Positions 20,745 to 51,810 of a stretch of DNA of 64,000 nucleotides are shown here, piece after piece (position 1 is the stretch's first letter; each line of letters starts with the position of its first letter). The position numbers were made by a program, and so were the translations under genes. This DNA is from Halostella limicola (GTDB lineage: Archaea; Halobacteriota; Halobacteria; Halobacteriales; Natronoarchaeaceae). The DNA lies in assembly GCF_003675875.1 (NCBI RefSeq), contig NZ_RCDI01000001.1, positions 186,001 to 250,000 of the forward strand, given 5' to 3'. Under the pieces are notes generated by a model, which did no database searches, was not told where the DNA came from, and was given only the letters and a program-made list of their open reading frames with translations.

Positions 20745-21398
20745 ATGTCCGTCTCCGTCGTCGTCGACGACCGGGAACCGACCGGCGTCGCCGCGGCGCT
20801 CCGCGCCCACGCCGACGTGGCGTCGGTTGCGGTCCGCCGCCTGGACGCCGGCGACATCGTCATCAGGGACGTGGCGTTCGAGCGCAAGACCGCGGACGAC
20901 TACCTCCGGTCCGTGCTCGACCGCGGCGGCTCGGATCTCGAGGAACAGGTCGCGAAGATGGCCGCGGCGTACGACCACGCCTACGTCCTCGTCGAGGGCC
21001 ACTTGGACGAACTGGAGGACCGCCGCCCGGGCGTCGCCGGCGCGTCGGTCCGCGGGTCGATGGCCTCCATCACCGCCCGGTACGGCACGCCGGTGATCCC
21101 CTGCGGCGACGGCGACCGACTCGTCGACGTGGCCGTCCGGTTCGCTCGCAAGCACACCGAGGAACCGTCGGCCCGGGCGCTATCGACGGGCGCCGTGCCG
21201 TCCCGGGCCGAACCCGTCGCCAAGCGCATGTACGGCTGCATCGAGGGCGTCGGCCCCGGTACCGCGGCGGCGCTGTACGACGCCTTTCCGACCGTCGAGG
21301 AACTCGTCGCGGCGACCGAGGAAGAACTCATGACCGTCGAGGGCGTCGGGCCGAAGCGTGCCGCGGCCATCTACGAGGCGTTTCGCAGTCGGGACTAG
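20745..21398 (+). CDS. ERCC4-domain nuclease with helix-hairpin-helix (XPF/Mus81-like)
   Basis: A 217 aa stand-alone structure-specific nuclease. The ERCC4 fold starts SVVVDDREPTGVAAALR and carries the catalytic GD...FERKTADDY signature (about 42-58). A C-terminal tandem helix-hairpin-helix follows (IEGVGPGTAAALYDAF and VEGVGPKRAAAIYEAF, about 160-215). It lacks the helicase found in Hef, so the genome encodes at least two ERCC4 nucleases, both within this window. A role in cleaving branched DNA is likely. The ATG is about 56 bases after the MFS stop, so co-transcription is possible. Confidence 0.88.
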   Translation: MSVSVVVDDREPTGVAAALRAHADVASVAVRRLDAGDIVIRDVAFERKTADDYLRSVLDRGGSDLEEQVAKMAAAYDHAYVLVEGHLDELEDRRPGVAGASVRGSMASITARYGTPVIPCGDGDRLVDVAVRFARKHTEEPSARALSTGAVPSRAEPVAKRMYGCIEGVGPGTAAALYDAFPTVEELVAATEEELMTVEGVGPKRAAAIYEAFRSRD

Positions 21399-21537
21399 AA
21401 GGGCGGTCGTCGAAGGAAGATGAAATCCAACACAAAGCACGCGATCTGGTTCAAATGACGGATATAGTTGTCATGGACCGGAGCGCTCTCCCGATAGAGC
21501 CGTCATCTTTACTTCAATCAACTGCGAGCAAACATAT

Positions 21538-22671
21538 ATGCGAGCTTACGAGTTACTCGGGGGAGACACACCGACGAAGCGTAATGTTGATCCGTTCCGG
21601 TCAGAGGAAAAACTCGAAGAATTACTCGCCGAGGTCCCGTCCCTGTTGCTGGAGGAGCAGCTCCTGATCGTCGGCCAGCAGGTAGGCGTCGAGACAGGTA
21701 CACTCGATCTCCTTGCCGTTGACAAGTATGGCAACATCGTCGTCTTCGAGTTAAAGAGAGGAGAAAGTGGGACAGGGAGCGCCTCTGAAGGGTCTATCCT
21801 CAGCCAGCCCCAGCAGTACGCGCAAGCCCTGCAATGGTTCTCGTACGATGAGTTGAACGACGTGTATCAGGAGTATCGCACGGATTGTAGCTCGACTGAC
21901 GGAGCAGAAGGGTCGGTGTCCAGAAGCGAGTCCTTGCTCGACGCGTTCATTACTCACTTCGGCACGAGACTGGAGCCAGAGGGCTTCAATCAGCATCAAC
22001 GGATGGTCATCGTGGCCGAAGAGATTACCGATCGAACCGCCACCAATGCACGATATCTGCGAGATGAGGGACTACACCTGCAGTGCGTCGAAGTGCAACG
22101 GTTTCGACTCACCGAAGGCGAGGAGACCCCGCCGATCCTCGTGGCTTCGACGGTTGTCGACTACGACGAAAAGCAGGTTCAACCGAACGAGGATGGAACC
22201 ATCACGTTCCCCGATATCAACGAGGCGATCGCGTCGAAAGCTTTCCCGACCTTTGAGGAGATAACTCACGCGACTGCGCTCAATGATTTGTTCCCGGGTG
22301 GGTTCGACCTCCGCGAACCGCGAATGCGGTCGCTCCACCCAGATCACCCGGATACAGTGCGCTACGTTCTTCGCGTGAAACCGCTGGAGTGTAACCACGT
22401 GCGGATCTCAATCGACGTAACTACTCGTGGACTAGATATCGATACTGTCGACAAGGAATCGCTGACTGATCGGCTTCGAAGCGCCAGCGACCGATTCGAA
22501 CGCGCCGGGTTCGAGGTCAATCACTCTCGGAACACCTTCCGAATCGTCTCAAAGCGTTGGGACATCGACTCCGTAGCCGACGTTCGCAACGACGCATTTC
22601 TCGAAGAAGTAGCCGACCGGTACGCGGAACTAGTCAGAATCGGCCACGAAGTGATGCTGGACACTAAGTAA
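21538..22671 (+). CDS. NucS-like PD-(D/E)XK nuclease domain protein
   Basis: A 377 aa protein starting MRAYELLGGDTPTKRN. The central segment ETGTLDLLAVDKYGNIVVFE, followed by LKRG, is a clear PD-(D/E)XK nuclease core (D, then E-x-K) of the NucS/DUF91 type. Residues about 10-45 (EEKLEELLAEVPSLL) are the usual helix before it. The C-terminal third (about 230-377) is not recognised. Codon use is visibly less GC-biased than in neighbouring genes, suggesting acquisition by transfer. A TTTACTTC element about 30 bases upstream fits a leaderless start. Repair or defence function is possible. Confidence 0.75.
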   Translation: MRAYELLGGDTPTKRNVDPFRSEEKLEELLAEVPSLLLEEQLLIVGQQVGVETGTLDLLAVDKYGNIVVFELKRGESGTGSASEGSILSQPQQYAQALQWFSYDELNDVYQEYRTDCSSTDGAEGSVSRSESLLDAFITHFGTRLEPEGFNQHQRMVIVAEEITDRTATNARYLRDEGLHLQCVEVQRFRLTEGEETPPILVASTVVDYDEKQVQPNEDGTITFPDINEAIASKAFPTFEEITHATALNDLFPGGFDLREPRMRSLHPDHPDTVRYVLRVKPLECNHVRISIDVTTRGLDIDTVDKESLTDRLRSASDRFERAGFEVNHSRNTFRIVSKRWDIDSVADVRNDAFLEEVADRYAELVRIGHEVMLDTK

Positions 22672-22764
22672 TTACGCTCATACGGTTCGTACTATTGACT
22701 TCATCTTCCGTACGTCGAAGACGGTTACTGCAGAAAGTTCCTAAGAGACCGAACCTAACAGAAG

Positions 22765-22837
22765 TAGTCCATCCTGGATTCGAACCAGGGTCGAAGCCCC
22801 CAGAAGGCTTCAGGATTGGCCACTACCCCAATGGACT
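22765..22837 (-). tRNA. tRNA-Gln (anticodon CUG)
   Basis: Reading the minus strand, a 7-bp acceptor (AGTCCAT with ATGGACT), a D arm beginning GGGGTAGTGG, an anticodon stem (AAGCC/GGCTT) with loop TTCTGGG (anticodon CTG), and a T arm CCTGG-TTCGAAT-CCAGG are all present. The discriminator base is A; CCA is not encoded. Length is 73 bases, with no intron. It lies inside the AT-richer island, the usual place for tRNA-targeted integration. Confidence 0.95.
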
Positions 22838-22880
22838 GACATGTATCCCGCCGGCATCGTGCGCCGACGTTCTACTCATT

Positions 22881-22910
22881 CGTAACCCGCTTCTATATTT
22901 GAGTGTTACG
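22881..22910 (-). promoter_or_regulatory. TATA box of tRNA-Gln within an inverted repeat
   Basis: On the minus strand a CAAATATAG TATA-like element lies about 58 bases before the mature tRNA. It is flanked by the inverted repeat CGTAAC (22881-22886) and GTTACG (22905-22910). The distance implies a 5' leader of about 30 bases for RNase P to remove. Confidence 0.45.
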
Positions 22911-22952
22911 AACTCGGCTCGCGACGAGAAACAGTAACGAGTTTTCGTCCCG

Positions 22953-23540
22953 CTATTCGTCCGCTTCCGGCTGCGTCGACGATCTGGCGGCCGGACGGTC
23001 GTAGTGTTCCTTCCGGTGGCAGTTCGCACAGAGGACGGTACACTTCTCGATCTCCTCTTGGAGTCGGTCCTTCCCGTATCCGTACGTGATCATCTTGGCG
23101 ACGTTCATCTCCTTCTCGGCGTCGTCTCGGTGGTGGAAGTCGAGGCATGCCGGGTCCGATTCGTCGCACCGATCACAGCCGCCGCGTTTCCGCTGGATAT
23201 CGTTCGCCCACGCTCTGTGAGCCTCGCGCCGCCGCAACGACCGTTCCGTGTTCCACTCCCGGTTCTTGTAGTGCCACCGCTGGTCCTGCGATAATTTCTC
23301 CCAATCTGTTCCCTCCGGCAGGTCGACGTCATCAGGTTTCTCCTGAACTCGCGGTCCACGGGAGTAGGTCGTCTCCAGACCGGCTTTCTCGTTCGCCGCG
23401 TTCCAGCCACCGACGACCCGGAGGATGGTCGACGCGGACGGCGTCAGTCCCAGATCCTCGTACTGCGCTTTCGTTGGTGATTCGTCGAGTTTCCGTGCGG
23501 CCTCGCGAAGTGCGTCGAGGCAATCTTGTTCGGTGGTCAT
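22953..23540 (-). CDS. HNH endonuclease with homing-endonuclease-associated repeat
   Basis: A 195 aa protein starting MTTEQDCLDALREAARKLDE. The N-terminal region (SPTKAQYEDLGLTPSASTIL, then GGWNAANEKAGL) matches the homing endonuclease associated repeat, a DNA-binding module. The C-terminal HNH nuclease has two cysteine pairs (CDRCDES and CANCHRKEH) and the catalytic LDFHHRD histidines (about 130-185). A TATA box on the minus strand sits 21-30 bases before this start. It is free-standing, not inside an intein or intron as far as can be seen. A selfish or tRNA-locus-associated element is likely. Confidence 0.85.
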   Translation of the reverse strand: MTTEQDCLDALREAARKLDESPTKAQYEDLGLTPSASTILRVVGGWNAANEKAGLETTYSRGPRVQEKPDDVDLPEGTDWEKLSQDQRWHYKNREWNTERSLRRREAHRAWANDIQRKRGGCDRCDESDPACLDFHHRDDAEKEMNVAKMITYGYGKDRLQEEIEKCTVLCANCHRKEHYDRPAARSSTQPEADE

Positions 23541-23560
23541 GGTAGCGTTGGTAACGCTTC

Positions 23561-23570
23561 GGTATTTGAA
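23561..23570 (-). promoter_or_regulatory. TATA box of the HNH endonuclease gene
   Basis: Minus-strand TTCAAATACC sits 21-30 bases before the ATG at 23540, the spacing expected for a leaderless archaeal message. It decides the choice of that start. Confidence 0.6.
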
Positions 23571-23574
23571 CCTC

Positions 23575-23595
23575 AGCGCCCGCCCTTCGGGCGCT
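23575..23595. repeat. Perfect 8-bp-stem hairpin upstream of the HNH promoter
   Basis: AGCGCCCG (23575-23582) pairs exactly with CGGGCGCT (23588-23595) around the loop CCCTT. Position directly upstream of the TATA box suggests either an operator or the transcript end of a vanished upstream gene. Confidence 0.5.
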
Positions 23596-24300
23596 ATACA
23601 AACCGACCCAGAACGAGGATGAGGCGAACACTGACGCATCGAGAGATTTCACGATCGGATCTTGCCGCGAAGCGGTCGGAGAGAGCGGTATGAATCGTCT
23701 CATCCATTCTCTCGGCGTTCATGATCAGATCGAGCCCCGCTAGGAAACAGAACAGCATCGTTCTGAATCGATCTAGGAAAAGCTGAGATCCAAAGAGCCG
23801 CAAAGGAGTAAAACGGTCGATAACGGATTTTAGCGGCGGAACGAGGGTTTGCTGGGAAGACGAACGAGAGGGTAATCCCTCCGAATCACGAATAGAAATT
23901 TTCACAATCGGTTCCCATCTTGCGATCAGGCGTCGCTGTCGGCGTCGAAGAACCACCCCGTAGGGACGAGTATCCGAAATGTGAAGCCCCCGAAATTGCC
24001 AGAAGGCGGAACGGCGTGTCTGCCCCGTCTTTGCGACGCCGCTCGTCGGCCGTGCGAGGTCTGCTTCGCCGTTCCTAGTTCCGATATCTTCGTTCGAAAA
24101 GCGGTTACTAGCGGGGATTTTCGCGATTATGATCGGGTGCAGACGTTCTCATATAGGCTCATGCAGCGCGAAACCTCCAGAGAATCCGTAATCCCGGTCG
24201 TGAAGAGTCAGATCGCTTCTCTTGGCGGTTCACTATCGCTTTTCAGCTAGTACGTGCATGGATCGACACCTCTTTGCCCGAGTTCTGTACACTGTCGTGT

Positions 24301-24876
24301 ATGTACGTCGGACGCTTCGTCGTCGTCGGCCCGGAGATAGGCGCGTACCGCGTCTCTTCCCGATCGTTCCCGAACCGCCGAATCGTCGAACGCGAGGGCG
24401 CGCTGACGGTCGGCCCGACCGAGGACGCGCCGGAGACGGACAACCCGTACATCTCGTACAACTGCGTGCGGACCGCGGGGGACAGCGCCGTGCTCGGCAA
24501 CGGGTCGCACGTCGACCCGATCACCGAGAAGATCGAACTGGGCTACCCGGCGCGGGACGCGCTCGCCGAGAGCCTGCTCGCGCTGGACTACGAGAAGGAC
24601 GACTACGACACGCCGCGGGTGGCGGGCGTCGTCGGCGAGGAGTCCTACGTCGGCACCGTCCGGAAGGACGCGCTGCTGGTCGAGCGGGTCGAGGAGCCGA
24701 CGCTCGTCGCCACGTACGAGACGGACTCGCCGGAGGCGTTCGACTTCGCGGCGACGGACGCCGGGGGGGCCGCCCGCGAGGCGTTCGACCTGGACTTCGA
24801 GCACGCCGTCTGCGCGGCCGGGGTGGCGCGCACGACTGACGGCTTCGAGACGGCGGTCGTCAACGGCGAGGAGTAG
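24301..24876 (+). CDS. purO: Archaeal IMP cyclohydrolase PurO
   Basis: A 191 aa enzyme that closes the purine ring, converting FAICAR to IMP in the last step of de novo purine synthesis. Archaea use this Ntn-hydrolase-fold enzyme in place of the bacterial PurH C-terminal reaction. The start [20 protein letters not shown] and the following SFPNR and ISYNCVR motifs are diagnostic of the PurO family, as is [10 protein letters not shown]. Length is typical. The ATG at 24301 is chosen over one nine codons upstream because family members begin at this methionine. Confidence 0.93.
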
Positions 24877-24937
24877 GGCGGTTCGGGGCGCCCGTCGCCG
24901 GACAACGCTGAAGGGCCCCGCACGCGTCGGTCCCCGT

Positions 24938-25597
24938 ATGCGACTGGGCGTACTTTCGGACATCCACGGCAACCGCGTCGCCCTCGACGCGGTGCTAGAC
25001 GACATGCCCCCCGTCGACGGCCTCCTCTGCGCCGGCGACGTCGTCGGTTACAACCCCTGGCACGCCGACTGCGTGGCCGCGGTGCGCGATCGCGACGTGC
25101 CCTGCGTGAAGGGCAACCACGACCGGGCCGTGGCGACCGGGACGGCGTTCCGGTTCAACAGCATGGCCGGCGCGGGCATCGAACACGCGCGGGAGACGCT
25201 GTCGGACGACCAGATCGAGTGGCTCGCCGGCCTCCCAGACGAGCGCGTCGAGTGCGACGGGCGGGTGAAGATCGTCCACGGCCACCCCGACGACCCGGAC
25301 CGGTACACCTACCCCGACCAGTTCTCGCCGCGACTGCTCGACGAGGAAGATGTCCTGATCATGGGCCACACGCACGTGCAGGGCCACGAGCAGTACGAGG
25401 AGGGGATCGTGATGAACCCCGGGAGCGTCGGGCAACCGCGGGACGGCGACCCGCGCGCGGCCTACGCCGTCCTCGACCTGAACGCGCTGACCGTCGAGGA
25501 GCACCGCGTCGAGTACGACATCGGCGCGGTCCGGCGCGCCGTCGAGGAGGCGGGCCTCCCCGCGAAGATCGGGTCGCGGCTGGAGAAGGGACGGTGA
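24938..25597 (+). CDS. Metallophosphoesterase (YfcE/MJ0936-type)
   Basis: A 219 aa calcineurin-like phosphodiesterase. All five metal-binding blocks are present: LSDIHGN (about 5), GDVVGYNPW (about 33), GNHDRAV (about 60), VHGHPDD (about 113) and GHTHVQGH (about 145). Such enzymes hydrolyse phosphodiesters with two divalent metals; the physiological substrate is unknown. It starts 61 bases after purO, so the two may be co-transcribed. Confidence 0.92.
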   Translation: MRLGVLSDIHGNRVALDAVLDDMPPVDGLLCAGDVVGYNPWHADCVAAVRDRDVPCVKGNHDRAVATGTAFRFNSMAGAGIEHARETLSDDQIEWLAGLPDERVECDGRVKIVHGHPDDPDRYTYPDQFSPRLLDEEDVLIMGHTHVQGHEQYEEGIVMNPGSVGQPRDGDPRAAYAVLDLNALTVEEHRVEYDIGAVRRAVEEAGLPAKIGSRLEKGR

Positions 25598-31521: not shown

Positions 31522-31664
31522 GGGGAAGGGCAGGCACTCAGAGCGTGCGCCGTCGACCGACGGCGCTCGCGCAAGCTAGCGGCCTGGAACGAGCGCCGAA
31601 GGCGCTCGTTGGTGGACATTGAAAGGGCGACGCGAGCGCTTGGCAGCGCTCGCGAGGGCTTTCA
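31522..31664 (-). repeat. 3'-end repeat element, copy B (after the PolD small subunit gene)
   Basis: Plus-strand order: GGGGAAGGGCAGGC (31522-31535), GCGGCCTGGAACGAGCGCC (31579-31597), the hairpin AACGAGCGCC-GAA-GGCGCTCGTT (31588-31610), the 19-base core GGTGGACATTGAAAGGGCG (31611-31629), and GAGGGCTTTCA containing the reverse complement of the TGA. The same blocks recur in the same order in copy C, and the core and end also in copy A. Confidence 0.75.
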
Positions 31665-33278
31665 GGTGAACTTCCGGAGCGTCGGCTCCAGCGTGTCCAG
31701 GTCGACGACGGGCGCGTAGCCGGCGTCGGGGTCGATGTTGACGGACTTCTGGAACTCGGTCTGGGCCTGCCAGCAGCCGCTGTTGATCGAGAGAACGTTG
31801 TGGTACTTGCCGACGCCGAGCTTGTGGACGTGACCCGTGTGGAAGACGTCGGGGACGCTGTCGATGGTGAGGTAGTCCTTCTCCTCGGGCGCGAGGCGGA
31901 GGTGGCCCCCGTACTGCGGCGCGACGTGGCGCTTCTTGAGGAGCTGGTACATCGCCTTGTGCGGCTCGTCGTAGCTCGCCTTGTCCTCCGGGAGCTCGGC
32001 GATGATCTCGTCCAGCGAGACGCCGTGGTACATGAGGACTGAGACGCCCTCGATAGTGACCGTCGAGGGATTGCCCGTGAAGCGAGCGTCGTGGGCACTC
32101 ATGATGTTCCGGAGCTCCTCGTCGAAGGCCGGCTGCGGCTCGGCGAGGCGGACCGCGTCGTGGTTCCCCGGGATCATGACGATCTCCATGTCGCCGGGCA
32201 CCTCCTTCAGGTACTCCGAGAAGCGCTCGTACTGCTCGTAGATGTCGACGATGTCGAGCTCCTCGTCCTGGTCGGGGTAGACGCCGACGCCCTCGACCAT
32301 GTCGCCCGCGATGAGGAGGTACTCGACGTTCTCGGCCTCGGGCGTGTGCAGCCAGTCGGTGAAGCGGTGCCAGGCGTCGGCCATGAACTCCTGGCTGCCG
32401 ACGTGGACGTCGCTGATGAGCGCCGCCTGCACGTGGCGGTCGGCGGTGTTCGGCGAGTACGTCCGCGGCACGTCGGGGAAGTGCATCGAGTCGACGAAGA
32501 GGATGCCGGCGTCGTCCGCGAGCGTCCCCTCGACGGCGATCACCTCGTCGCAGAGCAGCTCCTCGACCATGGCGGCGATGTCGCGGTCCTTCATCACCAG
32601 ACAGGGGAAGGTCCCGGTCCGGTCTTCGAGTTCGACCAGCCAGTGGCCGCTGGCGGTCGAGCGGATGTCGCTGACCATGCCGACCATCGACGCCTCGCTG
32701 CCGCCGGGCATCGACTGGATGGCCTCCGCGGGGCGGTGGTTCACGCGGCCGCGGAGCTTTTCGCCGAGGCGGTCGTACCGGTCGCGAAACACCGCGACGA
32801 AGTCCTCGTACTCGCCGGTCCCGGTGCTCCGGCCGGTGATGTCGTTCGCGATGTCGGGGTCGCTGGGCGACCGTTCGACGGTCCCGTCCGGCGATACCGT
32901 CGTTTCGGATGGAGCATTTGTCGCCGCTGAGTCGCCGCCGCTGTTCGGGCCTGCAGTCGAAACGGAGGGGTCTGAAGGATCGGTCGCGCCGTCGGTCTCG
33001 CCGTCCGCACCGGGCGGAGCATCGACGGCCCCCGCCCGGGTAGAGGCGGAGTCGCTCATCGTCGCGGGGTCGCCCGCGGCGTCCGGGTCGCTGTCGAGCA
33101 CCTCGCGCACGTGTTCGACCGAGAGTCTGAGCGCGCCGTCGGGCGCCGCGTCGACGACCTGTTCGAGCGCGCGAGCCGGGTCGTCGGCGGAGGCGATGAG
33201 CGTCACCGCCTCCCGGTCGGCGTTGTACCCCCGGCTCGTGAGTTCGCTGACGATCCTGGCGGGGGCCTCCAGTGGCAC
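31662..33278 (-). CDS. polD1: DNA polymerase D small subunit (DP1)
   Basis: A 538 aa exonuclease subunit of archaeal family-D DNA polymerase, the likely main replicative polymerase. After an N-terminal region and a low-complexity acidic linker (about 75-140), an OB-like domain leads to the metallophosphoesterase core with all motifs: ALISDVHVGSQEF, LLIAGDMVEGVG, VMIPGNHDAVRL, YHGVSLDE and TGHVHKLGVG. Active-site residues are intact, so 3'-5' exonuclease activity is expected. The start is taken as GTG at 33278 (reading PLEAPARIVSELTSRGYN), where family homology begins; an ATG at 33341 is the alternative. The C-terminus PTLRKFT is PIP-like but lacks the Gln. Confidence 0.92.
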   Translation of the reverse strand: MPLEAPARIVSELTSRGYNADREAVTLIASADDPARALEQVVDAAPDGALRLSVEHVREVLDSDPDAAGDPATMSDSASTRAGAVDAPPGADGETDGATDPSDPSVSTAGPNSGGDSAATNAPSETTVSPDGTVERSPSDPDIANDITGRSTGTGEYEDFVAVFRDRYDRLGEKLRGRVNHRPAEAIQSMPGGSEASMVGMVSDIRSTASGHWLVELEDRTGTFPCLVMKDRDIAAMVEELLCDEVIAVEGTLADDAGILFVDSMHFPDVPRTYSPNTADRHVQAALISDVHVGSQEFMADAWHRFTDWLHTPEAENVEYLLIAGDMVEGVGVYPDQDEELDIVDIYEQYERFSEYLKEVPGDMEIVMIPGNHDAVRLAEPQPAFDEELRNIMSAHDARFTGNPSTVTIEGVSVLMYHGVSLDEIIAELPEDKASYDEPHKAMYQLLKKRHVAPQYGGHLRLAPEEKDYLTIDSVPDVFHTGHVHKLGVGKYHNVLSINSGCWQAQTEFQKSVNIDPDAGYAPVVDLDTLEPTLRKFT

Positions 33279-33380
33279 ACCCCTCACGAGCAGTGCAGAG
33301 TGCAAAAACGTAGCGGAACTATCCGTTCGGGGTCGGGGCAAGCAGAAGGTTGATTTCGCGCAGGGGAGTATGCCGTGACG

Positions 33381-34250: not shown

Positions 34251-34632
34251 GACGGGGACGCGGCGCTTCTTCCCGCGGTTTTGTGGGTATCTCCATACGA
34301 AATAGAGGGGTCTGGGAAGCGTTCGCGTAACGGATCAACCGACCGGCCGCGCTGGCGTGCGCGAGTGAAACGAGCGCCGCCAGCGGACGGGGAAGGGCAG
34401 GCGCTCCGAGCGTGTCGCCGCGACCGCCGGCGTCTTCACGAGCGAAGCGAGTGAAGGCTCGTGAGGCCTTCGGCCTCACGGCGACTCGCGCAGACTGGCG
34501 GCCTGGAACGAGCGCCTTCGGCGTTCGTTGGCGTCTTCGCGAACGGAGTGAGGGGCGGCTCGGAGCGGCGAAGCCGCTCCGGTGGATATAAAAAGGGCGC
34601 AGCGCGCCGCGCCAACGACGCGCAAGGGCTTT
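34251..34632. other. 382-base gene-free region between signal peptidase and orc1
   Basis: Contains no credible gene. The left part (34251-34330) is less GC-rich and includes GAAATAGAGGGGTCTGG, faintly like an origin recognition box. From 34389 on it is filled by repeat copy C and several extra hairpins, including GTGAGGCC-TTC-GGCCTCAC (34461-34479) and GGAGCGGC-GAA-GCCGCTCC (34562-34580). Confidence 0.7.
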
Positions 34633-34635
34633 TTA
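34389..34635 (-). repeat. 3'-end repeat element, copy C (after orc1)
   Basis: Plus-strand order: GGGGAAGGGCAGGC (34389-34402), two added hairpins, GCGGCCTGGAACGAGCGCC (34498-34516), hairpin AACGAGCGCC-TTC-GGCGTTCGTT (34507-34529), another hairpin, the 19-base core GGTGGATATAAAAAGGGCG (34581-34599), and AAGGGCTTTTTA carrying the reverse complement of the orc1 TAA. It is the longest copy. Confidence 0.75.
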
Positions 34636-36129
34636 GTTGTCGAACCGGGCCTGCACGAACGGCTGGACGTCCTCGATGTCGCCGAGGCGGGAGTCGCTGA
34701 GGAGGACGGCCTCGGTCTCGTCGATCGGGACCGAGAGGCTGATCTCCTTGGTGCGGCCGTAGCGGCCCTTGCTGACGACGACCGCGTTGACGATGCCAAG
34801 CATGTCGAGTTCGCTGATGAGGTCGGTGACGCGGCGCTGGGTGAGCACGTCGGCGTCGATCTCCTCGCAGAGGCGCTTGTAGATGTTGTACACCTCGCCG
34901 GTGTTGACGTTGTGGACGCCGTTTTTCTCCAGGAGGATGATCGAGAAGAGGACGATCTTCGACTGCGTCGGCAGGGTGCGGACCACCTCGACCACGCGGT
35001 CGAGTTCGATCTTGTCCTGGGCCTTGCGGACGTGGTCCTCGTCGACGACCTCGGCCTGGTCGCGCTCGGCGAGTTCGCCCGCGGTGCGGAGCAGGTCGAG
35101 CGCGCGGCGGGCGTCGCCGTGCTCCTGCGCGGCGAACGCGGCACACAGCGGGATCACGTCGTCGGTGAGCGCGTCCGCCTTGAACGCGACGTCGGAACGG
35201 TGCTGGAGGATGTCCCGCAGCTGGTTCGCGTCGTACGGCGGGAAGACGATCTCCTCCTCGCCGAGGCTGGACTTGACGCGGGGGTCGAGGAAGTCGGTGA
35301 ACTTCAGGTCGTTCGAGATGCCCATGATCGACACCCGCGAGTTCGCGAGCTCCGAGTTCATCCGTGAGAGATTGTAGAGGGTGTCGTCGCCCGACTTCTC
35401 GACGAGCTTGTCGATCTCGTCGAGCATGATGACGACCACGCGCTCGTGGTAGTCGACCGCGTCGAAGAAGACGCTGTACACGCGGTCGGTCGGCCACCCG
35501 GTCATCGGGACCGTCTCGAAGTCGTCCTTGTCCGCCTCCAGTTCCGCGATGCGATCGTCGACGGCTTCGAGGGAGTCGAACTCCGCGTCCGCGAGCGCCG
35601 CGGCGTCGTCGGCCGCCGCCTCGCGGAGTTCCCGGAGGTCTTCCAGCCACTCGTCGATGAGCCGCTCGTTCTCCTCGATGAACTTGTTCGCCAGCTGGGC
35701 GAGCACGCGGTACTGGGTGTCGGTCACCTCGCAGTTGATGTACTCGACTTCGCAGGGGACCTTGTACTTCTGGGACGTGCTCTCCAGTTCCTGACTGACG
35801 AACTTCGCGCTCGCGGTCTTACCGGTTCCGGTCTTCCCGTAGATCAGGATGTTCGACGGCGTCTCACCGCGGAGAGCGGCGACGAGTATCGTCGCCATCT
35901 TGTTGATCTGTTCCTTCCGGTGGGGGAGCTCGTGCGGAGTGTACGACGGCCGCAGCACCTCCTTGTTCTCGAAGATGGGCTCGCCGCTCAGGAGATCGTC
36001 GAACAGGCCCTGGCTCTCCTCCTCGTCGTCCTCCAGCACGACGTCGTCCAGGTCGACGTCGAAGTCCCGAGACGAGTCTACGTCGACGCGTCCCGCCGGT
36101 TCGCCCGTTCCCGTGTTCTCGTCGGACAT
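34633..36129 (-). CDS. orc1: Orc1/Cdc6 origin recognition protein
   Basis: A 498 aa AAA+ initiator that binds origin recognition boxes and loads the MCM helicase. N-terminal acidic tail (1-55), then the AAA+ domain with Walker A YGKTGTGKTASAKFV (about 95-110) and Walker B VVIMLDEIDKLVE (about 235), sensor 1 around ISNDLKFTDFLDPRV, and a C-terminal winged-helix domain from about 390 (NIYKRLCEEIDADVLTQRRV). A charged coiled-coil-like insertion (about 165-205) is unusual in length. It reads away from the adjacent 1.5 kb gene-free region holding ORB repeats, the classic initiator-origin pairing. Confidence 0.96.
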   Translation of the reverse strand: MSDENTGTGEPAGRVDVDSSRDFDVDLDDVVLEDDEEESQGLFDDLLSGEPIFENKEVLRPSYTPHELPHRKEQINKMATILVAALRGETPSNILIYGKTGTGKTASAKFVSQELESTSQKYKVPCEVEYINCEVTDTQYRVLAQLANKFIEENERLIDEWLEDLRELREAAADDAAALADAEFDSLEAVDDRIAELEADKDDFETVPMTGWPTDRVYSVFFDAVDYHERVVVIMLDEIDKLVEKSGDDTLYNLSRMNSELANSRVSIMGISNDLKFTDFLDPRVKSSLGEEEIVFPPYDANQLRDILQHRSDVAFKADALTDDVIPLCAAFAAQEHGDARRALDLLRTAGELAERDQAEVVDEDHVRKAQDKIELDRVVEVVRTLPTQSKIVLFSIILLEKNGVHNVNTGEVYNIYKRLCEEIDADVLTQRRVTDLISELDMLGIVNAVVVSKGRYGRTKEISLSVPIDETEAVLLSDSRLGDIEDVQPFVQARFDN

Positions 36130-36382
36130 CTGTTTCGTTGATTCACCCCATCGTTTCGACTGGAGCCCGTGCCACGGAAGGAGAACGTCTCCGACGTGAT
36201 AGCCTCAGATGCCGGATCCGATGCCGAACCGACCCCGTGGACCGTCCAGTTGATGCAAACGAAGCAGAGGTAGACCAGGGTCTTAAAATCTTCCCTCCCG
36301 GTCACGATCCGAACGGCAAATCAGTGAAATCGTATTTATAGCGCCTCACGAACCGTATTTCGGGGATATAGTCACCGAGTAC

Positions 36383-36875: not shown

Positions 36876-36914
36876 AAATCCCGGGACGTGGTCTCCGAAG
36901 AGCACCCCGAGCAA

Positions 36915-36943
36915 CACCCCCACCCCTCTGTTTCAAGTGGAAC
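36915..36943 (-). repeat. Origin recognition box ORB1 (reverse orientation)
   Basis: Minus strand GTTCCACTTGAAACAGAGGGG followed by TGGGGGTG: the haloarchaeal ORB form of a GTTCCAC-N2-GAAAC core followed by a G-string. Faces the AT-rich segment and ORB2. Confidence 0.85.
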
Positions 36944-37024
36944 TCGCCAAGTGAGGGGGCGGGGGTCGTGCCGGTAGTGGAGTGAATCGCCTGCCGTCCG
37001 TACCGGCCAGCGGATCTCTAGCGG

Positions 37025-37115
37025 TTCCTAACGTATTATTTCGAAACCACATTCTTCTAGAATAGTGTTTTCCGCTAGTGCGGTTTTGGTTGAGTCGCTT
37101 GTATCATAAAACCCC
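37025..37115. other. AT-rich segment, candidate duplex unwinding element
   Basis: Clearly AT-richer than its surroundings (for example ACGTATTATTTCG, GTATCATAAAA) and placed between oppositely oriented ORB1 and ORB2, as expected of the unwinding element. It contains the palindrome TTCTAGAA and a small hairpin CCGC-TAGT-GCGG. Confidence 0.65.
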
Positions 37116-37158
37116 TGCATGCTAGAGAGACGGGATCCCACCTCCCCTCCTCTCCCGC

Positions 37159-37188
37159 GTTCCACCCGAAACGAAGGGGTGGGGGGGG
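37159..37188 (+). repeat. Origin recognition box ORB2 (forward orientation)
   Basis: GTTCCACCCGAAACGAAGGGG followed by TGGGGGGGG: the best match in the window to the haloarchaeal ORB, with an intact G-string of nine G. Oriented opposite to ORB1 across the AT-rich segment. Confidence 0.88.
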
Positions 37189-37255
37189 GTTCGGGTGATT
37201 GTCGGGGGAGTCGGGTTCGGCCCTTTCCCTTCGCTATCGACGTCGAAGGGTTGGT

Positions 37256-37281
37256 CCCACCCCTATGCTTCAGGTCCGAAC
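37256..37281 (-). repeat. Degenerate origin recognition box
   Basis: CCCACCCCTATGCTTCAGGTCC aligns with ORB1 (CCCACCCCTCTGTTTCAAGTGG) at 17 of 22 positions, including the full G-string side. The GTTCCAC half is weaker, so binding strength may be reduced. Confidence 0.55.
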
Positions 37282-37342
37282 GACACAGCAACTCTCAAAA
37301 CTGCCGTACTGCGGCGGGATACCCGACCCGTCTGAACGCCTC

Positions 37343-37365
37343 AACCCCCACGTTTCCAGTGGAAC
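37343..37365 (-). repeat. Origin recognition box ORB3 (reverse orientation)
   Basis: Minus strand GTTCCACTGGAAACGTGGGG ending GTT. The core is intact; the G-string is shorter than in ORB1 and ORB2. Confidence 0.8.
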
Positions 37366-37670
37366 GCCGACGCTTCTCGACCGAAATCAACAATATATTG
37401 ACACCGCATGTCACGGATTATCGATACGGGGTCTCGACCGCGTCGGGTCCGCCCCCGATCACCCGCGACCCAGCGACGAGCTCGCGGCGACCGCGGACGG
37501 AACAGGTACTTTTCCTGATCGGTAGCGAAGAAAGCCGAGTGTAATCACACGACTCCGAAGCGTCGATCGGGGGATCCGTACTTATTTCGGAGATAATACA
37601 TGTCTGACGTACCCTTAAGTGTTTCCGGTGTTGTTACCTGCACAAGCACCTACGGGTGCGTGAAGATAGG

Positions 37671-38312
37671 ATGGGACTGATAAACGGACTCAGAGAAAGT
37701 ATCTCACGGGTTACAGAGAGGCTTTTTGCGGACGACGAACAGAAACGGATCGGTATCTACGGGCCCCCCAACGCGGGGAAGACGACGCTGGCGAACCGCA
37801 TCGCGCGGGACTGGACCGGCGACGCGGTCGGGCCGGAGAGCCACATCCCGCACGAGACGCGACGCGCGCGCCGAAAGGAAGACGTCGAGATCAAGCGCAA
37901 CGGCAAGTCGGTGACGATAGACATCGTCGACACGCCGGGCGTGACGACGAAGGTCGACTACGAGGAGTTCACCGAGTTCGACATGGAGAAGGAGGACGCC
38001 GTTAGGCGTTCCCGCGAGGCGACGGAGGGCGTCGCCGAGGCCATGCACTGGCTCCGCGAGGACGTCGACGGGGTCATCTACGTGCTCGACTCCACGGAGG
38101 ACCCGTTCACGCAGGTGAACACGATGCTCATCGGCATCATCGAGAGCCGGGACCTCCCGGTGCTCATCTTCGCGAACAAGACCGACCTCGACGACTCCAG
38201 CGAGCAGAAGATCAAGAACGCCTTCCCACAGCACGAGACGATCCCGCTCTCGGCGCTGGAAGGCGACAACATGGACGAAGTGTACGACAAGATCGCGGAG
38301 TACTTCGGGTGA
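37671..38312 (+). CDS. oapA: Origin-associated Era-like GTPase OapA
   Basis: A 213 aa small GTPase. G1 is IGIYGPPNAGKTTLANRIA (about residues 27-45), G3 is IVDTPGVTTKVDY (about 85), G4 is FANKTDLDD (about 172) and G5 is ETIPLSALEGDN. It has no KH domain, so it is Era-like only in the G domain. The gene leads a tight three-gene cluster next to the origin. This cluster is known in haloarchaea as oapABC (origin-associated proteins), whose roles are still unclear. The ATG at 37671 is preferred to a GTG five codons upstream. Confidence 0.88.
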   Translation: MGLINGLRESISRVTERLFADDEQKRIGIYGPPNAGKTTLANRIARDWTGDAVGPESHIPHETRRARRKEDVEIKRNGKSVTIDIVDTPGVTTKVDYEEFTEFDMEKEDAVRRSREATEGVAEAMHWLREDVDGVIYVLDSTEDPFTQVNTMLIGIIESRDLPVLIFANKTDLDDSSEQKIKNAFPQHETIPLSALEGDNMDEVYDKIAEYFG

Positions 38313-38316
38313 TACG

Positions 38317-38703
38317 ATGCCGGAAACCAAAGATCCGGACGACGACGGCGTTCAGATAGACCTCATCAGCGGCGAGCGGATGGAGGGTATGACGAGCATG
38401 GAGAAGATCCGGATGATCCTGGACGGCGTCCACGAAGGGAACATCGTCATCCTCGAACAGGGGCTCTCCCCCGACGAGGAGAGCCGTCTCATCGAGGTGA
38501 CGATGACGGAGATCAGTCCGGACGGCTTCAACGGCATCGAGATCGAGACCTACCCCCGCGCACAGACCAGCGATTCGAGCTTTCTCGACCGGCTGATGGG
38601 TCGCGAGTCGACGAACAAGCTCACGGTCATCGGTCCGGCGAACCAGATCGAGACGCTGCACAAGGACGAGACGCTCATCAGCGCGCTCGTCTCCCGCCGA
38701 TAA
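38317..38703 (+). CDS. oapB: Origin-associated protein OapB (DUF2073)
   Basis: A 128 aa protein of the DUF2073 family, starting MPETKDPDDDGVQIDLISGE. Conserved parts include MTSMEKIRMILDGVHEGNIV, LEQGLSPDEESRLIE and GFNGIEIETYP, and a C-terminal LTVIGPANQIETLHKDETLI. It is soluble and acidic with no recognised catalytic residues. It starts four bases after oapA stops, and its stop overlaps the oapC start (TAATG). Co-conservation with OapA and OapC suggests a shared complex. Confidence 0.85.
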   Translation: MPETKDPDDDGVQIDLISGERMEGMTSMEKIRMILDGVHEGNIVILEQGLSPDEESRLIEVTMTEISPDGFNGIEIETYPRAQTSDSSFLDRLMGRESTNKLTVIGPANQIETLHKDETLISALVSRR

Positions 38704-39485
38704 TGCCCCACCAGTGCACGAACTGCGGCCGGACGTTCGCCGACGGTTCCAAGGAGATGCTGTCGGGCTGTCCGGACTGCGGCGGCAACAAGTTCCAGTT
38801 CGAACCCGCCGGCCGGTCGGCCGGTGCGGAGGGCGATGCACCCGAAACGGAGGCCTCCGCCGGCGCGGCCGACGCCGAGTCCGCCGGAGCGAGTTCGAGC
38901 GGTGCGTCCCGGAGCGCCGCCGCGGCGCGAGACGCCCCTCGGTCGTCCGCCGACGCGGAGGGCGGCGTCGCCGGCAAGGTGAACCGCGCGCGCGAAACCG
39001 TCCGGGACTGGGTCGGGACGGACCGACAGACGGACGAGCGGTCCGCTCGGTCGACCGACGATCGTTCGACCGCGAACGCCGGACGCTCGGACACCGCCGG
39101 CGGCCCGTCGAACGCGTCCGCGGAACGCCCGGACGGGCCGGCGACCGCCGACCAGGAGGACTCCGCGCAGGCGAACGCCCGGAGCGACGTCGTCTCGCGC
39201 GACGAACTCCCGGACGACCCGCCGGAGCCGCCCCGCGAACCCGCGGCCGGCGAGGGTGCCCGCGTCGTCGACGAGCCCGACGACGCCGACGCGGAGCGCC
39301 CGGACCTCTCGGAGCTGCGGGAGGAGCTCAACAACCAGTTCGAGAGCATCAAGATCGTCCAGCCCGGGCAGTACGAACTCAACCTCATGGAGCTGTACGA
39401 CCGCGACGAGTACATCATCTCGCTCAAGGAGGACGGCCGATACGTGATCGAGGTGCCGGAGACCTGGCGGTCGCCGGACGAGTGA
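38703..39485 (+). CDS. oapC: Origin-associated zinc-ribbon protein OapC
   Basis: A 260 aa protein. The N-terminal zinc ribbon is MPHQCTNCGRTF and GCPDCGGNKFQFEP (about 5-35). A long disordered Ala/Ser/Asp/Arg-rich stretch (about 40-195) follows. A compact C-terminal domain (about 200-260, LREELNNQFESIKIVQPGQY, then a beta-rich NLMELYDRDEYIISL) is the other conserved part. Coupled to oapB by a one-base overlap. The ribbon-linker-domain layout suggests a nucleic-acid or protein scaffold near the origin. Confidence 0.85.
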   Translation: MPHQCTNCGRTFADGSKEMLSGCPDCGGNKFQFEPAGRSAGAEGDAPETEASAGAADAESAGASSSGASRSAAAARDAPRSSADAEGGVAGKVNRARETVRDWVGTDRQTDERSARSTDDRSTANAGRSDTAGGPSNASAERPDGPATADQEDSAQANARSDVVSRDELPDDPPEPPREPAAGEGARVVDEPDDADAERPDLSELREELNNQFESIKIVQPGQYELNLMELYDRDEYIISLKEDGRYVIEVPETWRSPDE

Positions 39486-39489
39486 TCGA

Positions 39490-39513
39490 CACCCCTCTGT
39501 TTCTACTCCGAAC
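39490..39513 (-). repeat. ORB-like half-site behind oapC
   Basis: CACCCCTCTGTTTC is identical to 14 bases of ORB1 including the G-string side, but the GTTCCAC half is poorly conserved (TACTCCGAAC). An outlying weak initiator site is possible. Confidence 0.35.
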
Positions 39514-39648
39514 CGCTTGAATGTAGTCGACAAGAGTTCTGTAATCCGATTATCGCCTCCAGATGAAAATGGGGATAGGGGGATGGTAGAACCCACCGCC
39601 AGGCGATCTGGTAAGACGTAACTCGGACGAATCCCTATTTCGGTTCGA

Positions 39649-44748: not shown

Positions 44749-44880
44749 GCCCGCTTCCTCCGTCCCGCCAGACCGCTCGCATCATCGCCCCGACGTATCG
44801 ACGGTCGTCGAACCCCTTCGCTTCGTGTGGAGATACTGAAAACACGTCCCGGCAACGCGTCCGCCGGGACGACGCCGCTT

Positions 44881-51679: not shown

Positions 51680-51810
51680 GTGCTGTGGTGACTATTTCCA
51701 CGACATAAACCGCGGCGAAACGAACGGCAAGCGAGTTCACTGCGGTTGTTCGCCGACGGCGCGGGCGACCCCTTCGTTTCCTCTGGAGGTAGTGATAGCT
51801 CGGCGCGCCG

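Follow-up and report, generated by a model that had tools for sequence, protein, structure and literature searches.

The window analysed here is a stretch of 64,000 nucleotides, positions 186001-250000 of contig C2, from a 4.12-Mb haloarchaeal genome of nine contigs. The orc1/cdc6-1 initiator gene is found at 34633-36129 on the reverse strand. Its product contains all of the AAA+, Cdc6 lid and C-terminal winged-helix domains (Pfam AAA, Cdc6_lid and Cdc6_C) and can be aligned, in both of its parts, to Sulfolobus Cdc6-1 (2QBY_A, chain A of the entry) and Aeropyrum ORC1 (2V1U_A). The oapABC operon (Pfam MMR_HSR1, OapB and OapC) occupies 37656-39485 on the forward strand, with OapB and OapC matching the Pfam families of the same names, so that orc1 and oapABC diverge from an intergenic region of 1.5 kb. 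The gene for DP1, the small subunit of DNA polymerase D (Pfam DNA_pol_E_B and Metallophos), is present at 31662-33341 on the reverse strand. For comparison we took the best 80 of 446 loci with an Orc1 relative, all from named genomes, which together with the window make 81 loci. The nearest named relative as judged by Orc1 is a metagenome-assembled Halobacteriales archaeon (L017), with an Orc1 identity of 95%. The oapA gene is within reach of orc1 in 71 of the 80 relatives and is divergent in all 71, which bears out the flanking gene arrangement given in the preliminary description of this DNA.

The oapABC operon is now also named arvABC. According to the excerpted text of PMC10927574, OapA drives the formation of extracellular vesicles in Haloferax volcanii, with no established role in replication. 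This vesicle GTPase operon (37656-39485) has a fixed position beside oriC1. In the gap after oapC there is a weak ORB-like match (39482-39515, score 7.9), which has the 14-mer GAAACAGAGGGGTG in common with ORB1. Elsewhere, two stretches are lower in G+C than their surroundings (about 57-62% against about 70%), at 21000-25000 of the window and at C2:260001-280000; these are possibly acquired elements.

The intergenic region contains two high-scoring ORBs, ORB1 at 36913-36946 on the reverse strand (matrix score 43.5) and ORB2 at 37156-37189 on the forward strand (44.0). Their TTCCA ends point inwards and their G-strings outwards. Between them is an A+T-rich segment at 37029-37128 (60% A+T over 100 nt), which is presumed to be the unwinding element. 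The best 50-mer between the ORBs, starting at 37030, reaches 66% A+T compared with 31% for the window, a value attained by 0.01% of the 50-mers of the window; the entire stretch from ORB1 to ORB2 is 44% A+T, and the segment is one of the most A+T-rich in the window. The preliminary description had two ORBs facing each other over an AT-rich stretch with their G-strings outwards, and the scores and composition agree with it. An imperfect inverted repeat is found just inside the ORBs, consisting of a G-rich half at 36953-36965, the counterpart of the enhancer element III of Haloarcula hispanica (PMC3936714, in excerpt), and a C-rich half at 37137-37155, an imperfect counterpart of element IV. This repeat, like the ORB in the orc1 leader at 36136-36169, had gone unnoticed in the preliminary description.

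A third ORB is located on the oapA side, at 37335-37368 on the reverse strand (matrix score 31.6). It had been described as one more clear reverse copy, and it is a real ORB, but it consists of the core only and has no G-string. A further copy at 37250-37283 on the reverse strand, proposed as a degenerate ORB, scores 4.2, no better than background matches elsewhere in the window, and is therefore not established as an ORB.

The same replicator architecture is present in almost all of the loci compared. In a fixed pair search, 78 of the 81 loci yield two inverted ORBs whose tails point outwards; contig ends cut the three remaining loci (L074, L080 and L088). Among the 80 loci that could be scored, the pair ranked highest has this inverted arrangement in 76, with a start-to-start distance of 184-303 nt. 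Under a loose run criterion, both halves of the G-rich inverted repeat inside the ORBs are found in 26 of 76 loci and one half in 40 of 76. The window has, in imperfect form, the G-rich inverted repeat characteristic of haloarchaeal oriC1. GC skew passes from plus to minus over C2:220-260 kb, a weak change of sign. Helical phasing of the ORB1-ORB2 spacing was considered and rejected. The best period over 78 spacings is 10.5, but after de-duplication within genera (38 values) the p value for periods 10-11 is 0.065; a wider scan, of periods 8-14, reaches p 0.014, although its best period, 13.1, does not correspond to a helical repeat. The pairs of L029 and L083 were set by hand in this analysis, although another pair ranks top in those loci. 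The initiator gene with its divergent oapA and the inverted G-tailed ORB pair in relatives identify this locus, by its architecture, as almost certainly the oriC1 of the main chromosome, in agreement with the preliminary description. As an oriC1 it belongs to a described family and is unremarkable within it.

The preliminary description had placed the ORB system within 36915-37365, but the ORBs extend far beyond it. We searched for ORBs with a 34-column weight matrix, trained on the orc1-oapA intergenic regions of the relatives with the window and L017 excluded, and with a 21-nt core matrix, which defines an ORB without regard to its tail; reversed or complemented matrices served as controls. 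In the 400 kb around the window the core matrix gives 16 matches above 8, and the reversed or complemented matrix none. A pattern search of the window finds nine ORB matches against 0.04 expected from shuffles. When up to three mismatches are allowed, the genome as a whole has 17 pattern matches, of which 15 fall on C2, and the reversed pattern has no match.

Within the window the 34-column matrix finds five strong cores beyond the oriC1 ORBs, and the next-best match scores only 7.9. The leader ORB (36136-36169, reverse strand, score 26.0) lies 7-40 nt before the orc1 start codon. Two of the satellites occur in convergent gaps, one 3' of orc1 (34287-34320, forward strand, score 25.9) and one at 44803-44836 on the reverse strand (score 23.5). 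Another (51759-51792, reverse strand, score 22.4) is in an intergenic gap, with an acyl-CoA dehydrogenase-like gene on one side and a gene for an ABC ATPase on the other, both named from their translations without a family search. The fifth is the stronger arm of an inverted pair inside DP1 (32947-32980, forward strand, score 25.5). All five have the core only and lack the G-string.

Absence of the G-string is nearly general outside the replicator. In the intergenic region, where sites were defined by the 21-nt core only, the G content of the tail is two-peaked. Sites with at least six G in the eight tail positions number exactly two in 65 of 80 loci (one of the 81 loci is truncated and was dropped from these counts), one in 12 and three in 3. 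Outside the intergenic region just three of 172 sites have such a tail. The G-string is therefore close to exclusive to the replicator ORBs.

A forward ORB on the orc1 side occurs in 75 of 76 loci, and a site no more than 600 nt from the end of orc1 in 20 of 81. Judged by position, each of the other four genomes of the same genus retains one or both DP1 arms, together with a site on either side of orc1, one between it and the origin and one on its 3' side. The outlying sites mostly differ within the genus, and the site at 44.8 kb is clearly matched in only one of these four genomes.

The distribution of core ORBs along the chromosome was examined in 11 named genomes, chosen among the loci for complete or long chromosomes. 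With up to two mismatches the core pattern gives 136 matches and the reversed pattern 3. Three of the 136 are on other contigs and were dropped, leaving 133 on the oriC1 contig. The number within 10 kb of oriC1 is 74, rising to 94 at 50 kb and 105 at 100 kb, where uniform placement would give 0.8, 4.0 and 7.9, respectively; the p values for this clustering presuppose independence and uniformity and are to be taken only as very small. When the origin region and DP1 are excluded, 37 of the remaining 76 matches are still within 50 kb, against 2.2 expected, and 28 are beyond 100 kb. The orientation of satellites relative to the origin is random in these genomes (22 of 52 outward, p 0.33). In 66 genomes of other classes of the phylum, the pattern with one mismatch has 0-4 matches per genome, compared with 3-9 in the 14 haloarchaea drawn. 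In one genome of the same phylum from outside the order (G222:C1:146353-165745) an inverted ORB pair is accompanied by two ORBs 7 and 12 kb away, a layout which suggests that satellites may extend beyond the haloarchaea.

It might be argued that this locus is a plain oriC1 only, and that its satellites are chance matches or relic ORBs that do nothing. The 28 of 76 outlying matches that lie beyond 100 kb in the 11 genomes are where chance matches with two mismatches are expected, and the far satellites differ between species, as such a reading would have it. The clustering is strong, however, and the reversed and complemented controls are nearly empty; to this is added a codon-level constraint with an exact 57-nt spacing over 36 genera, described below. 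We consider lack of function improbable, and satellites of this kind are very probably functional.

Another idea, that satellites mark further origins, was discarded. On the oriC1 contig of the 11 genomes none of them is directly beside another orc match, as compared by eye with the orc matches listed at E<=1e-15; the nearest that we noticed is at about 13 kb (G002). The genome that contains the window has about nine distinct orc/cdc6 loci on contigs C2-C6. About 2.5 kb from one orc paralogue, and 132 kb from oriC1, three core ORBs in the same direction, 85 and 75 nt apart, precede a MutS-like gene named by its translation (C2:90710-90890; L117:10710-10890). Given its closeness to the paralogue, this array may belong to the paralogue.

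The ORB pair inside DP1 is found in the linker of the protein, about 1.3-1.8 kb past the end of orc1. The weaker arm (32885-32918, reverse strand, core score 9.5) corresponds to a pattern match at 32894-32914 with three mismatches, and the two arms of the window are unequal (strong 27.3, weak 9.5). Its two arms are inverted in the same sense as those of the replicator pair and are separated by 36 nt of coding sequence. A match in DP1 is present in 65 of 81 loci; the best pair has a start-to-start spacing of exactly 57 nt in 39 of these 65, and eight further loci have spacings of 54, 69, 72 or 75 nt, each divisible by three. Haloferax loci often have one weak arm, and Halorubrum loci have mostly kept the forward arm alone.

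We recoded the encoded peptides synonymously in 47 loci, leaving aside 16 of the 81 without a DP1 match and 18 of the 65 whose best spacing is not 54, 57, 69, 72 or 75 nt. Recoded sequences equal the real score only rarely, with p<0.001 for 46 of the 47 reverse arms and 44 of the 47 forward ones; p<0.05 holds for every arm tested, and both arms of the window give p 0.0005. Codon choice in DP1 is fitted to the ORB. Since the pair had been picked as the best in its region, a control for selection bias was needed. Pairs with summed scores above 30 are found in DP1 in 41 of 65 loci, in contrast to 0 of 65 with the reversed matrix and 0 of 65 in the orc1 coding sequence.

Across the class, the pair at 57-nt spacing with up to three mismatches is present in 97 of 194 Halobacteria genomes, from 36 of 65 genera, and the reversed pair pattern is present in none of the 194. 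The 97 do not include the genome of the window, in keeping with its weak arm. In all 16 genomes fetched from the 97 the pair is between the matches to the N-terminal and C-terminal parts of DP1; in one locus (L171) a stop interrupts the reading frame between these two matches. The position in the linker, the exact spacing and the fit of the codons together lead us to regard the pair as a DNA element that overlaps a coding sequence.

The inverted polarity shared by the DP1 pair and the replicator pair could mean that the DP1 pair and the satellites are further places of MCM loading by Orc1, auxiliary or dormant initiation sites within an initiation zone. The DP1 arms, however, are only 36 nt of coding sequence apart, and these sites lack the G-string, which a minimal oriC1 needs in order to fire (PMC3936714, in excerpt). 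Of the roles considered here this is the least probable.

Satellites could instead be operators through which Orc1 or an Orc paralogue controls transcription of orc1 and nearby genes. An ORB is present in the orc1 leader, the three same-direction ORBs near the orc paralogue precede the MutS-like gene, and Sulfolobus Orc1-2 is a transcription regulator according to PMC9738581. Sites in convergent gaps (34287 and 44803) or in the coding sequence of DP1 are not in promoters, and transcription control seems a rather unlikely role for the satellites.

The parS sites number about ten per chromosome and are concentrated around the origin. The number of satellites and their concentration at oriC1 recall this layout, and their random orientation would suit a binding platform, so that satellites might nucleate Orc1 or another ORB-reading protein and thereby arrange or segregate the origin region. 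No partner protein was identified, the core of the sites is the Orc1 ORB itself, and the leader and DP1 sites hug orc1. A role of this kind is unlikely, if a little less so than transcription control.

The interpretation that we prefer, tentatively and on the sequence evidence, is that core-only ORBs, which may hold and titrate Orc1, surround a replicator made of two G-tailed ORBs. G-strings are essential for autonomous replication of the minimal oriC1 (PMC3936714, in excerpt), and tail-less ORBs are for this reason predicted to bind Orc1 without firing. In the proposed mechanism, Orc1 would bind the inverted pair of G-tailed ORBs that flanks the A+T-rich segment, with the internal G-rich repeat boosting firing, and the core-only ORBs would also bind Orc1 without being able to fire. 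Because the satellites adjoin oriC1 they would double in number directly after firing and would then soak up Orc1, and the leader ORB would let Orc1 repress its own gene. Titration and autorepression together would restrain re-initiation, in the manner of DnaA titration in bacteria. The sites, their conservation and clustering, the near-lack of G-strings beyond the intergenic origin and the codon constraint in DP1 are observed, and Orc1 binding, inability to fire, titration and autorepression are inferred. The satellites probably help to control how often the chromosome is copied, and titration could well be their main role, a suggestion in which we place slightly less than even confidence. 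The random orientation of satellites and the turnover of the far ones between species count against this model, as do the single DP1 arm of Halorubrum and the often weak arm of Haloferax. The leader ORB, moreover, lies anywhere from about 30 to more than 600 nt from the start of orc1 in different loci, which weakens a simple promoter-blocking model. Its fullest form, an initiator-titration clock at haloarchaeal oriC1 in which core-only decoys, including the DP1 pair, are joined to an autoregulatory loop at the leader ORB and the G-string distinguishes ORBs that fire from those that hold Orc1, is a conjecture that we regard as somewhat doubtful.

To our knowledge, how archaea prevent a second firing of oriC1 is poorly understood. 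A conserved group of ORBs around the origin that are apparently unable to fire opens the question of re-firing to direct testing, in Haloarcula or other laboratory haloarchaea; among them, the overlapping code in the polymerase gene can be removed by synonymous changes that leave the protein untouched.

The oriC1, its G-strings and its internal repeat are already known. The origin described here resembles those of Haloferax volcanii and Haloarcula hispanica in being adjacent to orc1, in having an A+T-rich segment flanked by inverted ORBs whose halophile G-strings point outwards, in its internal G-rich repeat and in its synteny with oapABC and DP1. In Haloarcula hispanica the enhancer inverted repeat is just inside the ORBs (PMC3936714, in excerpt), the same place as the G-rich and C-rich blocks of the window. 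Nothing essential differs; the window departs from them in the imperfection of its repeat and in carrying an additional core-only ORB towards oapA. For dispersed or coding-embedded ORBs around oriC1 we found no report in the open-licence literature searched, supplements aside, and prior notice elsewhere is possible; the excerpts of PMC3528665, PMC4010727, PMC7776575, PMC4595724, PMC12141716, PMC3119063 and PMC3936714 contain none. Earlier surveys, as described in the excerpts of PMC3528665 and PMC4595724, covered only the intergenic regions next to orc genes, which suggests that they would have missed the satellites.

The closest precedent is oriC2D, downstream of cdc6E in Haloarcula hispanica, where extra ORBs outside the replicator and near an initiator gene are thought to titrate the initiator. 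According to PMC3936714, the ORB-rich region of oriC2 cannot be deleted unless oriC2 is also removed, and the ORB cluster restrains its origin, probably via titration. Titration is experimentally backed for oriC2 and not for oriC1. The locus described here shares with oriC2D the presence of initiator sites beyond the minimal origin and enriched near it. oriC2D is one intergenic block with 11 ORBs for another initiator, whereas the Orc1 sites here, single or paired, are dispersed across tens of kilobases, one pair is embedded in coding sequence, and the arrangement is conserved across families; directly downstream of orc1 there are single sites and a pair over kilobases in place of a dense cluster.

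In Escherichia coli, titration of DnaA by datA and DnaA boxes is combined with autorepression of dnaA. The proteins and sites are unrelated to those of haloarchaea, and the similarity is one of mode only. Titration by datA and DnaA boxes is mentioned in the excerpts of PMC4010727. The logic proposed for oriC1 is the same, with initiator decoys that are replicated together with the origin and an initiator that regulates its own gene. If such a titration clock does operate at oriC1, it would be convergent with bacterial control by DnaA.
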